Under the pieces are notes generated by a model. That model was given only the letters and a program-made list of their open reading frames with translations, did not search any database and had not been told where the DNA came from. 64,000 nucleotides of DNA. Source: SAR86 cluster bacterium (lineage in GTDB: Bacteria; Pseudomonadota; Gammaproteobacteria; Magnimaribacterales; Magnimaribacteraceae). This document shows positions 43,967 to 50,558 of the stretch, piece by piece. The translations under genes were made by a program, and so were the position numbers. Each line of letters opens with the position of its first letter. Positions within the stretch are counted from its first letter, which is position 1. The stretch is from positions 62,001 to 126,000 of the forward strand of contig CP097969.1 in NCBI GenBank assembly GCA_023703575.1, in the 5' to 3' direction.

Positions 43967-44980
43967 ATGAGTGATATTGAAATTAAACTTGAACCACAGG
44001 ATGAGTTTAATCATCAACCCGATGAAGCCTCCAATTACAACGAAAGTATGTACTTCAATGTGTTTGACCACAATAAGAAAATGGGTGGCTGGTTTAGATT
44101 GGGCAATAGACCTAATGAGGGATATGCAGAGATGACTTGTTGTATATATCTTCCTGATGGAAGAATTGGTTTCATGTTTGGTAGGCCTGAAATAACAACA
44201 AATGAATTTTTTGACGCGGGAGGCATGAAGTTTGAGGTAATTAATCCCTTCAAGTCATTAAAAGTTCAATACAAAGGGAAGATATTACTATTAGACAATC
44301 CTAAAGATATGTTAAACCCTAGCAAAGCATTTAAAGAGAATCCAAGAGTTGAATGTGAAGCTGATATAAATATCAGCGGCATATCCCCTATGTTTGGAGG
44401 ACAGGCAGTAAGAAAAGACGGGAGGCCTTTAGAAAGAGATCCTGAAAAAAGTTTTTCAAAAGCCCACTATGAACAACATACGTCTGGAAAAGGTGTTGTT
44501 AAAATAAACGGTGAAGAATGGACTATCGATGGCCTAGGGCTTAGAGATAAAAGCTGGGGTCCAAGATATTGGCAAGCAATTGAATGGTACAGATGGTTAA
44601 CGATTAATATAAATGACGAGATAGGGTTTATGTTTAGTATTGTTCACCAGAGCGAAGATTCTGAAAGAAGAGGAGGGATTGTTCTGAAAGATGGCAAATA
44701 TGAGATTGTTAAGGATTGCAAAATAGAGACTGAATATGATGATGATCATTTTCAAAAGACTTTTACGGCTTGGGCAGAAACTGATGAAAGTGAATATGAG
44801 GTTGAAGGTAAAGTTATTTCTTTGATTCCCCTCAGAAACAGAAGAAATACTCCTGCAGGAGATAGCCTTGTCACAAGAATTACTGAAGGAATGACTCAGT
44901 ACACATACAAAGGTATTGTTGGCTATGGTATGTCTGAATATTTAGATCAAGTAATTGATGGTAAGCCTATTGGACCATGA
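43967..44980 (+). CDS. CrtC/AttH-like (DUF7064/DUF7065-type) protein of unknown function
   Basis: The 337-residue product has no signal peptide or membrane span. It is beta-rich and contains paired Trp/Arg motifs such as KMGGWFRLGNRPNEGYAE, CCIYLPDGRIGFMFGRP, and the second-half block GLGLRDKSWGPRYW plus EWYRWLTI. This pattern resembles two-domain lipocalin-like proteins related to carotenoid hydratase CrtC and AttH (now DUF7064 and DUF7065), seen in marine and mycobacterial genomes beside redox enzymes. No function is known. It overlaps the following luciferase-like oxidoreductase by 4 bases (ATGA), so the pair is probably functional together. AAGGA upstream supports the ATG. Confidence 0.72.
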   Translation: MSDIEIKLEPQDEFNHQPDEASNYNESMYFNVFDHNKKMGGWFRLGNRPNEGYAEMTCCIYLPDGRIGFMFGRPEITTNEFFDAGGMKFEVINPFKSLKVQYKGKILLLDNPKDMLNPSKAFKENPRVECEADINISGISPMFGGQAVRKDGRPLERDPEKSFSKAHYEQHTSGKGVVKINGEEWTIDGLGLRDKSWGPRYWQAIEWYRWLTININDEIGFMFSIVHQSEDSERRGGIVLKDGKYEIVKDCKIETEYDDDHFQKTFTAWAETDESEYEVEGKVISLIPLRNRRNTPAGDSLVTRITEGMTQYTYKGIVGYGMSEYLDQVIDGKPIGP

Positions 44981-45963
44981 AGATAAGTGTAGTTGACCAA
45001 TCTCCTATTTTTTCTAATTCAAGTGCAGATCAAGCAATCAAAGATACTAGAGAGTTAGCTAAATATTGTGATTCTTTGGGATTGAACCGATTTTGGTTAG
45101 CTGAGCATCATGGGTCTTCTTCATTTGCTGGATGCTCACCTGAGATATTAATACCTAGTCTGGCATCAGAAACAGAATCGATTCGCATAGGCTCAGGAGG
45201 GGTTATGCTTATGCACTATAGTCCCTACAAAGTAGCAGAAAATTTTAGACTCTTAGAATCATTATTTCCAAATAGGATTGATTTGGGTCTTGGCAGGGCC
45301 CCAGGAAGTGATGCTTATCAGGCTGGTGCGCTTGCTTATGGCTCAAAGACGACTGGACCAGAATTTTTTCCAACAAAGATGAATGATTTAAAGTCCTTTC
45401 TAGAGGGAAGTGTTTCATCTACAAAATCTTTTGAGTCAGTTAATGTTACTCCGGGGCTAGGTGAATTACCCGAAGTTTGGCTATTGGTATCCTCAAGACA
45501 GGGAGCAGAATATGCCGCCCATTTTGGTTTACCTATGGCACTGGCATATTTTATTGATCCTTCATGCATAGACCTCGCAGATGTTTATCGAGATAACTTT
45601 CAGCCATCCATTTTTGCAGATAAACCAAAAATAAGTGTGGGCGTATTTTCTATCTGTGCTGACACAGATAAGGAAGCAGAAGAATTATCTTTAAGTGCAG
45701 CTGCATGGAGACTTAATTCTCAAAAAGGGATTTTTGGAGCATTCCCAACTTTGGAAGAAGCAAAGGACTCTATTAATGGCGATCTTGCGAGAACAAATGA
45801 TAATAGAACTTTTGTAGGTACCGCACAGACTATAAGAGAGAAGCTTCAACCAATTTTGAACAAAGTTGAACCTGAAGAGCTAAAAATCATCACTATATGT
45901 GAACCCTTTTCTGCCAGAGTGAGATCCTATGATCTAATTAAACAATCATTTGCTCTTAACTAA
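44977..45963 (+). CDS. LLM-class flavin-dependent oxidoreductase (MsnO8 type)
   Basis: The 328-residue protein is a bacterial luciferase-like monooxygenase of the single-component type. It starts ISVVDQSPIFSNSSADQA and contains the conserved LGLNRFWLAEHHGSSSFAG, SIRIGSGGVMLMHYSPYKVAE, and NRIDLGLGRAPGSDAYQ. This pattern is the LLM class, group 1 (MsnO8-like), using FMN or F420; substrate unknown. The ATGA overlap with the upstream CrtC-like gene suggests a two-protein unit. It is followed after 19 bases by the MFS gene copy. Confidence 0.9.
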   Translation: MKISVVDQSPIFSNSSADQAIKDTRELAKYCDSLGLNRFWLAEHHGSSSFAGCSPEILIPSLASETESIRIGSGGVMLMHYSPYKVAENFRLLESLFPNRIDLGLGRAPGSDAYQAGALAYGSKTTGPEFFPTKMNDLKSFLEGSVSSTKSFESVNVTPGLGELPEVWLLVSSRQGAEYAAHFGLPMALAYFIDPSCIDLADVYRDNFQPSIFADKPKISVGVFSICADTDKEAEELSLSAAAWRLNSQKGIFGAFPTLEEAKDSINGDLARTNDNRTFVGTAQTIREKLQPILNKVEPEELKIITICEPFSARVRSYDLIKQSFALN

Positions 45964-45976
45964 CTCAATAAATTTA

Positions 45977-47025
45977 ATATAAATGGAACTATTTAAATCT
46001 CGTCTTTTGAGTGAAGGCAGTATTTGGCATATAGGGAGTCTTAGCGCAGTCTATTTATCTCAAGGACTCTCTGGAGGCACTTTATTTGCCTTAACAACAT
46101 ATCTTGTATCTATCGGTGCTTCCGTAAAAGATATCTCATTATTGTTATCTATAACAATGGTTCCGTGGACACTAAAAGTATTTCTTGGGCCAATTATTGA
46201 TTCATTTACTTTAAGTAGATTCGGTAGAAGAAGATTTTGGATATTGATCAGTCAGGTTGCAATGATGTTAGCTGTCTCACCTTTAATCTTTATTGAGGTG
46301 ACGCAAGTTAACTTCATCCTTATAAGTTTATTGACGCTTCACAACACGTTTGTAGCAATATCAGATATTGCTATAGATGCCCTTGCTGCAGATAGTTTGC
46401 GTAAAGATCAAATGGCTAATGCAAATGGTTTCATGTGGGGGAGCAAGACCTTAGGTAGAGGTTTTGGGATGGCTTTGGCCACTTCTATTTTTTATGGGTA
46501 TGGAGTTAACGAAGGATTCTTAGTCTTGATTTTATTGATGTCCTTAGCTTTCCTATTTCCGATTTTTTCAAAGGAGCTTTCCCATAAGGCTGGGCAGCAA
46601 GAGCAGTCCTATAAAGATCGACTTACACTTAATGAATTACTTAAAGGAGTTAACCAAAGCTTATTAAATAGAAGTGCATTTGCAGCAATAACATTTATGC
46701 TTTTCTCAAACATCGGATATGGAATATTTGATGTAATTTACAACGAATTCTATATTAAAGTTCTGGGTTGGACTGGAGAGGATATAGGCTCTTTGCGGCC
46801 CTATGGCATGTGGTTAGGAGGATTGATAGGTTTATCTGCAGGTTTATTAACTATCTATATTTCAAAAAGATTTCTTCTACTATTTTTTATTACCGGACAA
46901 GCTTTTATCTTTCTCGCGGTAAGTAGTTTTAGCACTGAGACTTCTGATCTGATTTCATCAATAGCTATCATAGGTGTAGATGCAGTTGACGCAGGATGGT
47001 CAGTTCTAATATTTTCTATTTTAAT
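45977..47025 (+). repeat. tandem duplication, first 1,049-bp unit
   Basis: This segment is repeated directly as 47026-48074 with only three substitutions: C/T at 46510/47559, C/T at 46933/47982 and A/G at 46934/47983. The unit runs from 6 bases before the MFS start codon to codon 348. The junction at 47025/47026 carries short AT-rich similarity (TTTAAT) to the unit's start, consistent with slippage or short-homology recombination. Confidence 0.97.
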
Positions 47026-47059
47026 ATATAAATGGAACTATTTAAATCTCGTCTTTTGA
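45983..47059 (+). pseudogene. MFS transporter, truncated first copy of a tandem duplication
   Basis: The first copy encodes the same first 347 residues as the downstream gene, with one amino-acid difference (Thr for Ala near residue 318, STE versus SAE). It then enters the second repeat unit out of frame and ends after YKWNYLNLVF at residue 358. It lacks the last 64 residues, equal to about two membrane spans of a 12-span transporter. It could still be translated, since its start and leader are those of the original gene, but a functional MFS fold is doubtful. Its stop lies 28 bases beyond the start of the intact copy. Confidence 0.85.
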
Positions 47060-48074
47060 GTGAAGGCAGTATTTGGCATATAGGGAGTCTTAGCGCAGTC
47101 TATTTATCTCAAGGACTCTCTGGAGGCACTTTATTTGCCTTAACAACATATCTTGTATCTATCGGTGCTTCCGTAAAAGATATCTCATTATTGTTATCTA
47201 TAACAATGGTTCCGTGGACACTAAAAGTATTTCTTGGGCCAATTATTGATTCATTTACTTTAAGTAGATTCGGTAGAAGAAGATTTTGGATATTGATCAG
47301 TCAGGTTGCAATGATGTTAGCTGTCTCACCTTTAATCTTTATTGAGGTGACGCAAGTTAACTTCATCCTTATAAGTTTATTGACGCTTCACAACACGTTT
47401 GTAGCAATATCAGATATTGCTATAGATGCCCTTGCTGCAGATAGTTTGCGTAAAGATCAAATGGCTAATGCAAATGGTTTCATGTGGGGGAGCAAGACCT
47501 TAGGTAGAGGTTTTGGGATGGCTTTGGCCACTTCTATTTTTTATGGGTATGGAGTTAATGAAGGATTCTTAGTCTTGATTTTATTGATGTCCTTAGCTTT
47601 CCTATTTCCGATTTTTTCAAAGGAGCTTTCCCATAAGGCTGGGCAGCAAGAGCAGTCCTATAAAGATCGACTTACACTTAATGAATTACTTAAAGGAGTT
47701 AACCAAAGCTTATTAAATAGAAGTGCATTTGCAGCAATAACATTTATGCTTTTCTCAAACATCGGATATGGAATATTTGATGTAATTTACAACGAATTCT
47801 ATATTAAAGTTCTGGGTTGGACTGGAGAGGATATAGGCTCTTTGCGGCCCTATGGCATGTGGTTAGGAGGATTGATAGGTTTATCTGCAGGTTTATTAAC
47901 TATCTATATTTCAAAAAGATTTCTTCTACTATTTTTTATTACCGGACAAGCTTTTATCTTTCTCGCGGTAAGTAGTTTTAGTGCTGAGACTTCTGATCTG
48001 ATTTCATCAATAGCTATCATAGGTGTAGATGCAGTTGACGCAGGATGGTCAGTTCTAATATTTTCTATTTTAAT
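47026..48074 (+). repeat. tandem duplication, second 1,049-bp unit
   Basis: This is the second unit of the direct duplication beginning at 45977; it continues into the unique 3' end of the MFS gene at 48075. Unit phase (1,049 = 3n+2) shifts the frame at the junction, which explains the premature end of the first copy. Confidence 0.97.
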
Positions 48075-48267
48075 GGCACTTTGTACTTCAAATACCAGCG
48101 CGACTAACTTTGGGATTTTTATGGGTTTTGGGAATATATCCATGTTGATAGGAAACAACATCGCTCCCCTAATTTTAGGTTCAGGAGATTATAGCTTTGC
48201 TTTTATAATTGCTGCTTTAACGCTAATTCCTTGTTGGCTTTGTGGTTACTATTTAACTAAGACTTAA
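47032..48267 (+). CDS. MFS transporter, AmpG/PAT-like, intact copy
   Basis: The 411-residue protein has about 12 hydrophobic segments and the MFS loop 2-3 signature in FTLSRFGRRRFWIL. The start EGSIWHIGSLSAVYLSQGLSGG and SMVPWTLKVFLGPIIDSF-like region (TMVPWTLKVFLGPIID) resemble the AmpG/acetyl-CoA transporter-like branch, which carries muropeptides or acyl derivatives; the substrate is unknown. The only leader it has is 6 bases of shared sequence preceded by the end of the first copy, so translation probably depends on coupling to that ORF, whose stop is at 47057-47059. It ends with a 4-base overlap with the convergent MMPL gene. Confidence 0.9.
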   Translation: MELFKSRLLSEGSIWHIGSLSAVYLSQGLSGGTLFALTTYLVSIGASVKDISLLLSITMVPWTLKVFLGPIIDSFTLSRFGRRRFWILISQVAMMLAVSPLIFIEVTQVNFILISLLTLHNTFVAISDIAIDALAADSLRKDQMANANGFMWGSKTLGRGFGMALATSIFYGYGVNEGFLVLILLMSLAFLFPIFSKELSHKAGQQEQSYKDRLTLNELLKGVNQSLLNRSAFAAITFMLFSNIGYGIFDVIYNEFYIKVLGWTGEDIGSLRPYGMWLGGLIGLSAGLLTIYISKRFLLLFFITGQAFIFLAVSSFSAETSDLISSIAIIGVDAVDAGWSVLIFSILMALCTSNTSATNFGIFMGFGNISMLIGNNIAPLILGSGDYSFAFIIAALTLIPCWLCGYYLTKT

Positions 48268-50558
48268 TCAAATTTTCTTTTATCAAATCTTACAAGTAGA
48301 TTTGGGAATAGAAAGAAATCAATAATTAGCGCGAAAACAAAAGCGAGTATAGAAAACTGGGCAAAATTATGCACTGGAAGAAAGCTTACAAGATGCAGAA
48401 CTGAGAAGCCTAGAGCTAGAATGACTGTCATAGCTATTAAAGCAAAGCCAACCGCCTCAAAGGCATATAGCACTGCATCTTCTGGACTCTTATTCAGTTC
48501 TTGCCTTGCTAAATCATATTTACTGAGAAGGTGTACTGTGAAGTCAACGATGATACCCAAAGTAGAACCCATTCCAACTGCGACCATGAAATCTATTTGA
48601 CCGTCTATGATTGCCCAGATACCGAAAGCACTCGCAATTGGAAGGATATTAGGAAAAGATGAAAGAAATCCAAAATAAGCTGATCTAAAGAAAAATCCTA
48701 TTACAGTTATGATTAAGGCCATACCTATAGTCACACCAATCAATAAAGAGTTCACTACGGCTTCCATCAAGTAGACAAAAATAACTCTGAATCCAGCAGG
48801 CTTTGAAATCGTGCTTTCAAGATTGTTATCCTTAAGATATGTAGAAACCTTTTTATCAAATACAAGATATTCTTTAGAGGTCATTTCTCTTAATGTTGCA
48901 GCTATCCTAGTAGAGCCTCTATCTTGGCTTATCGAGGTATTAAGATCCAGCCCCATAGGAAGAGACATTTCATAGAAGAAGAGGTATTGAGAGGATAACT
49001 CTTGATCTTCAGGTATAACTTTCATCTCTAAATCATCTCCATGCATGCTTTTGTTGAGTGATTTCATTGTTCTTGCTAGAGATGTAACATGAGTAACTTC
49101 ATTTTGTTTCTCTAGCCACATGGAAAAATTATCAAGGCTTTCAAGAAATTCTGGATTTGAAACACTGCCATTATCAGACGTAGCCTTGAAACTAATGGGG
49201 AAGCTTGCTCCAAGCTTTTTATCTAGCCATAAAACATCGGGTCCAAAGCTAGTGTATTTCTCTGAATACATTTGAGTAGGATTCATATCTAACTTATTCA
49301 TAGGAATTAATAAAATCATTAGTAAGCTAGACAAAGGAATTATCAAAAGAAAAGCCTTTTTATTTGACAGACTAAAAATTGCAATCTTTCTAGACAAGTT
49401 AACTTGTTGTTGAGTTGATTTCGGAATTTTTACGTTTAAAAATGATATGAGAGGAGCGATAAAAAAGATTGTGTAAAAGAATGCAAATAAAACACCAATA
49501 GAAATGCCATTACCGAGATCCCTTAAAGGCTCCACATCAAGAGCATTGAATGACAAAAATCCAATACAAGTAGTAACTGTAGTCAGAAAAAGAGGTTGAA
49601 GATTCAATTCTAAACTTTTTATCATTGAGTTTTTACTAGTTTCTCCTCTGTTGCGTTCCTGAAAATAGATCGCAAAAAGATGAATGCAGTCAGCTAGTGC
49701 AAGGGTAATAATTAAAACTGGGTAAGTAATTACCATTTGATTAAGCGCATTACCCAAAAGACCGACTGAACCGAAGGTTGATCCAATTGTGAGGATGATG
49801 ACTCCAAAGGTCGAAAAAACTGCAGCAAGACTCCTTAGTACAAATAATATAGACAAGAAAATAACTAAAAACATTAGACTCATGACCGGTGGTATTTCTG
49901 CCTCAAGCATTTTTGGATCCATATATTCCTGATAAGGATTGCCTAATATTCTTATGTCTAGTTCAGGATTTTCTTTCTTAGCCTTATCAAGATATTCCAG
50001 AACATAATCAATAGTCACTTCTAGGTTTGCCTCCTTATTGGGCTGAGGGGGATCTATAACTAGGTTTATGATTGAAGTCCTCTTATCTTTAGAGATTACC
50101 GAGCCATATATAGCTTCCTCGCCTTCTACTAATAAGGATTTTTCCTTTATTTCCTGATCGGTTAGAAGAAGAGCATTTTCAATGAAAGGCTCTACTAATA
50201 AATCATCATCAACTGATCGAACATAAGAAAAGTTTGTAAGGCTATCGACCCTCACTGAAAATGGAGTCGTCCATGACAATTCAGTAAGTTTTTCTATTAC
50301 ATTTAAAGTTTCTTTCTTGAAAATTGTCTCTTTCCCTCCACTTATCGCGATAATTAAACTATCAGTTGGAAGAAACGTATCATCTATATCTTCCTTTAAC
50401 TCGGTAGCAGGATGTCCTTTCGGGAAAAATGTTTCTAAATCAGGATTGAATGTTAATTTAGATAGACCCTGAGATAATCCTAAGAATAATGCGATGCAAA
50501 GAACTATTGATAATTTCCTATATTCGATTATCAATCTAGCTAACACCTTTTTATTCAT
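48264..50558 (-). CDS. MMPL/RND-family exporter (COG1033)
   Basis: The 764-residue protein is an RND-superfamily member of the MMPL type with two repeats, each having a large periplasmic loop and a cluster of five to six spans. Seen are an N-terminal span, LTFNPDLETFFPKGHPA (loop start, typical), the GD-like motif in ITLALADCIHLFAIYFQE with the charged residues of span 4, and in the second half GSTLGIIVDFTVHLLSKYDLAR with Asp in the span. Family members export lipids or hydrophobic compounds. It is the third gene of a run LolA-like, barrel, MMPL with 5-base and 0-base spacings, suggesting a transenvelope lipid path. Confidence 0.9.
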   Translation of the reverse strand: MNKKVLARLIIEYRKLSIVLCIALFLGLSQGLSKLTFNPDLETFFPKGHPATELKEDIDDTFLPTDSLIIAISGGKETIFKKETLNVIEKLTELSWTTPFSVRVDSLTNFSYVRSVDDDLLVEPFIENALLLTDQEIKEKSLLVEGEEAIYGSVISKDKRTSIINLVIDPPQPNKEANLEVTIDYVLEYLDKAKKENPELDIRILGNPYQEYMDPKMLEAEIPPVMSLMFLVIFLSILFVLRSLAAVFSTFGVIILTIGSTFGSVGLLGNALNQMVITYPVLIITLALADCIHLFAIYFQERNRGETSKNSMIKSLELNLQPLFLTTVTTCIGFLSFNALDVEPLRDLGNGISIGVLFAFFYTIFFIAPLISFLNVKIPKSTQQQVNLSRKIAIFSLSNKKAFLLIIPLSSLLMILLIPMNKLDMNPTQMYSEKYTSFGPDVLWLDKKLGASFPISFKATSDNGSVSNPEFLESLDNFSMWLEKQNEVTHVTSLARTMKSLNKSMHGDDLEMKVIPEDQELSSQYLFFYEMSLPMGLDLNTSISQDRGSTRIAATLREMTSKEYLVFDKKVSTYLKDNNLESTISKPAGFRVIFVYLMEAVVNSLLIGVTIGMALIITVIGFFFRSAYFGFLSSFPNILPIASAFGIWAIIDGQIDFMVAVGMGSTLGIIVDFTVHLLSKYDLARQELNKSPEDAVLYAFEAVGFALIAMTVILALGFSVLHLVSFLPVHNFAQFSILAFVFALIIDFFLFPNLLVRFDKRKFD

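Follow-up and report, generated by a model that had tools for sequence, protein, structure and literature searches.

Probable recent partial tandem duplication of an MFS transporter gene in a SAR86 genome

The locus described here belongs to a SAR86 genome assembled as one contig (1,591,815 bp, 1.59 Mb), and all positions refer to the window, the whole stretch of 64,000 nucleotides that was analysed. It displays two head-to-tail tandem units of 1,049 bp each on the plus strand (45977–47025 and 47026–48074), which run through two overlapping open reading frames for an MFS transporter. ORF1 (45983–47059, plus strand) encodes a truncated 358 aa protein made of 347 native residues, with the substitution A318T, and an 11-residue novel tail, while ORF2 (47032–48267, plus strand) encodes the full-length transporter of 411 aa. 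ORF1 lacks the C-terminal 64 residues of the native protein, and with them one or more strongly hydrophobic segments. The duplicated piece spans from 6 bp before the transporter ATG to the second base of codon 348, and because its length equals 3 x 349 + 2 the two ORFs share 28 nt that are read in different frames; the ORF coordinates thus agree with the preliminary description, according to which a unit of 3n+2 shifts the frame, ends the first copy after 358 codons and leaves the second at full length. Upstream, a gene for an MsnO8-family luciferase-like monooxygenase (44977–45963, plus strand) stops 19 bp before the first transporter ATG (ATG1), so that this gene and the transporter are probably cotranscribed. 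Downstream, a convergent gene for an MMPL/RND-type exporter (48264–50558, minus strand) forms the start of a divergent allele block.

Both ORFs score above the gathering cut-off of MFS_1 (PF07690, 33.4 bits), ORF2 with 67.2 bits and ORF1 with 62.4 bits, and the nearest profiles of ORF2 are AmpG, BT1 and acetyl-CoA transporter. The best NCBIfam profile for ORF2, TIGR00901 (AmpG), matches nearly the whole protein (E = 1e-24), a likeness to the muropeptide MFS transporters of the AmpG family; however, the 87 bits obtained compare with a curated cut-off of 350. Since the best curated matches, AmpG and RhtX/FptX, both lie far under their own cut-offs, the transporter was assigned neither to the AmpG family nor to a substrate.

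Direct comparison of the units gave three mismatches (46510/47559, C/T; 46933/47982, C/T; 46934/47983, A/G), and confirmed the coordinates, the unit length and the three differences previously reported. Chance cannot yield a 1,049-bp repeat at 99.7% identity. Identity is lost sharply at both repeat ends when the unit flanks are compared, and a repeat search of the window recovered the same 1,049-bp spacing. The duplication junction (47012–47036, plus strand) reads ATTTTAAT followed directly by ATATAAATGG, the two meeting at 47025/47026. The locus therefore shows what marks a recent tandem duplication, namely a pair of nearly identical units in head-to-tail order and a novel junction between them. 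In a sampled census of 784 kb (49%) of this genome, consisting of the window and 36 other 20-kb stretches, no other near-identical tandem repeat longer than 100 bp was found, which leaves no sign there of a general tendency of the assembly to produce false tandem repeats; in 380 kb of readable sequence from two further SAR86 genomes, each a single contig, the only repeats were likewise shorter than 100 bp.

A single copy of the gene, with the same luciferase-like gene upstream, is present in all 12 same-genus genomes in which a contig spans it. These are mostly single-cell or metagenome assemblies, largely built from short reads, which can collapse such repeats, so that the single copies seen in them are good, if imperfect, evidence; the contig of AG-461-M22 stops inside the gene, 473 bp into the repeat unit, where copy number is unreadable and the genome uninformative. 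A 104-bp query across the junction has a full-length match only in this genome among 19 genus members, and in the other members its halves match apart from each other, one at each end of a single gene. The same duplication was not found in these relatives. The earlier proposal of a recent tandem duplication in one lineage, and its suggestion that related genomes be checked for a single copy, are both upheld by these comparisons.

The nearest strains, AG-899-B14 and AG-461-L06, both match the second unit at each of the three mismatched positions, which places all changes on the first. Judged by these bases, copy 2 is the ancestral, full-length gene, and the truncated copy 1 bears every copy-specific, derived substitution (two synonymous and A318T). 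The count of three substitutions in copy 1 versus none in copy 2 is not significant (two-sided sign test, 0.25) and is weakened further if the adjacent pair 46933–46934 is one event; it hints at relaxed constraint on copy 1. The two nearest strains also differ from each other at 14 sites within the unit, and the two copies agree at every one of them (12 with the AG-899-B14 base, 2 with the AG-461-L06 base). This points to one parental allele for both copies and rules out an origin from two alleles, one copy per nearby haplotype. Copy 1 differs from copy 2 by 0.29%, and copy 2 differs from the nearest strain by 0.29% as well; the duplication would thus be recent, yet older than the last few generations unless the copies were homogenised later. 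We consider these observations best explained by a single, recent, lineage-specific partial tandem duplication, with a truncated copy 1 and an intact copy 2, and give this reading a probability of about 0.75.

The junction is known from one assembly, and a sequencing or assembly artefact has to be weighed, either as a chimeric or misassembled join or as two population variants of the locus strung together. That every relative examined has a single copy would fit such an origin, and errors in the consensus, or variation among strains, could account for the three private differences. However, the repeat ends are sharp, while strung-together variants would normally bring flanking sequence with them, and the agreement of the copies at the 14 strain-polymorphic sites argues against two known haplotypes. 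The isolation of the case within 49% of a one-contig assembly speaks against a systematic fault, although not against a single one. Altogether, an artefact appears unlikely, and the duplication is probably physically real.

How the duplication arose can be approached from its ends. The parental sequences are AATTTAATATAAATGG at the start and ATTTTAATGGCAC at the end, and the join is ATTTTAATATATAAATGG. The word TTTAAT occurs just before the gene start and again at codons 346–348, so that it is common to both parental breakpoints with a 2-bp offset, while strict breakpoint homology is 0 bp. A 6-bp word shared at a nearly equal offset was found for 1.7% of random position pairs, which lends modest support to a microhomology join. 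A join at TTTAAT predicts one AT fewer than seen, so the event must have added an AT unless it proceeded without homology; the need for this extra AT counts against the microhomology model. The junction thus fits either a join at the common TTTAAT that gained an AT or a join without microhomology. In the scenario that we favour, the 1,049-bp piece would have been copied once head to tail, probably by replication slippage or template switching between the short matching sequences, with one AT gained at the join. Without the extra AT, the stop codon TAA of ORF1 would stand directly before the ATG of copy 2 (ATG2), while with it translation of ORF1 would continue for 10 further residues.

Duplications are common in bacteria, and about 10–20% of the cells in a Salmonella culture carry a spontaneous one (PMC3411829). 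The tandem duplications formed at short homologies in Salmonella resemble the present one in the direct repeat, the novel junction and the single copy in relatives; in contrast, those counted as real had at least 11 bp of junction homology, compared with at most 6 bp and an AT gain in SAR86, and they were seen as rare reads rather than in an assembled genome (PMC3411829).

As a result, copy 1, shortened at its 3' end, would retain the native leader, and copy 2 would still encode the transporter at full length. The preliminary description spoke of a duplication that splits the gene, which is misleading: copy 2 is intact and has the ancestral bases, so no function need be lost by the cell. It was right that copy 1 keeps the original leader and start and that copy 2 has only 6 bases of that leader, the unit beginning 6 bp before the ATG, and it went on to propose that copy 2 relies on translational coupling. 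Coupling is possible, with the ORF1 stop 25 nt past ATG2, but it is not required. The native start also lacks a Shine-Dalgarno motif (upstream sequence ACTCAATAAATTTAATATAA, compared with TTTTCTATTTTAATATATAA upstream of copy 2), an SD-like motif precedes only 15 of the 54 long ORFs of the window against a background of 16%, the 20-base stretches preceding ATG1 and ATG2 are equally rich in A/T, and the predicted folding of the two start regions is about equally weak. Copy 2 is probably still translated.

The protein encoded by ORF1 is probably non-functional. It could nevertheless be imagined that selection keeps the duplication, with the truncated protein regulating or partnering the full-length transporter, or through extra gene dose. 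ORF1 is indeed open up to the junction and across it, and the 0.29% divergence places the event before the last few generations, barring homogenisation. Against this, ORF1 has lost a C-terminal stretch with at least one strongly hydrophobic segment, all substitutions fall on the truncated copy, one of them changing an amino acid, and the duplication occurs in one genome only. We regard selective maintenance as extremely improbable, and the narrower proposal of a new, selected two-gene arrangement, in which copy 1 is expressed, retained and regulates or partners the transporter, as even less probable. On general grounds, the preliminary description expects such short near-identical tandem repeats to be unstable and usually lost in streamlined genomes. 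RecA was found in this genome, so recombination between the two units should be able to delete one of them. The partial duplication is most likely neutral and transient; its truncated copy probably drifts without any use, open to deletion by recombination, and would eventually be lost.

The duplication adjoins the divergent allele block, which extends from 48267 to about 54600 of the window and contains genes for the MMPL exporter, a LolA-like protein, a dehydrogenase and an enoyl-CoA hydratase-like protein. Within the block, identity is mostly 66–78% to AG-899-B14 and AG-920-D21 and about 97–100% to AG-461-L06; beyond 54600, identity to AG-920-D21 is back up to 96–100%. The block looks like a segment replaced through recombination. 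The duplication could accordingly be viewed as a by-product of the recombination that imported this block at the end of the gene, where identity to AG-899-B14 falls from about 99% to about 70% and identity to AG-461-L06 rises from 94–98% upstream to about 99%. However, the two copies trace back to one allele, and the gene is single both in AG-461-L06, which shares this downstream block, and in AG-899-B14, which carries the other block. Such a coupled origin therefore seems highly improbable.

Genes for mismatch repair were also searched for. MutS (PF00488) was found in none of 81 SAR86 genomes (this genome and 80 relatives; 37 of the 81 have a completeness of 90% or more), while in a sample of 56 genomes spread over the class it was present in 49; of the seven negatives, two are SAR86. 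MutL did not exceed the cut-off in any of the 81 SAR86 genomes, its weak matches covering short stretches, and a search of this genome for NucS was negative. From these profile searches, DNA mismatch repair appears to have been lost across the SAR86 order. Loss of mismatch repair would be expected to favour slippage and recombination between divergent alleles, and a tie to the present duplication is speculation. A published study states that several of the marker genes missing from SAR86 are connected with DNA recombination and repair (PMC11582366).

The duplication itself is an ordinary, recent mutation. It cleanly illustrates how a duplication arises and begins to drift in a marine genome that is both abundant and reduced; automated annotation will count two transporter genes at this locus, of which probably one functions. 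That MutS and MutL were not detected may be the more useful outcome, being relevant to the mutation rate in SAR86 and, there, to slippage and to recombination between divergent alleles.
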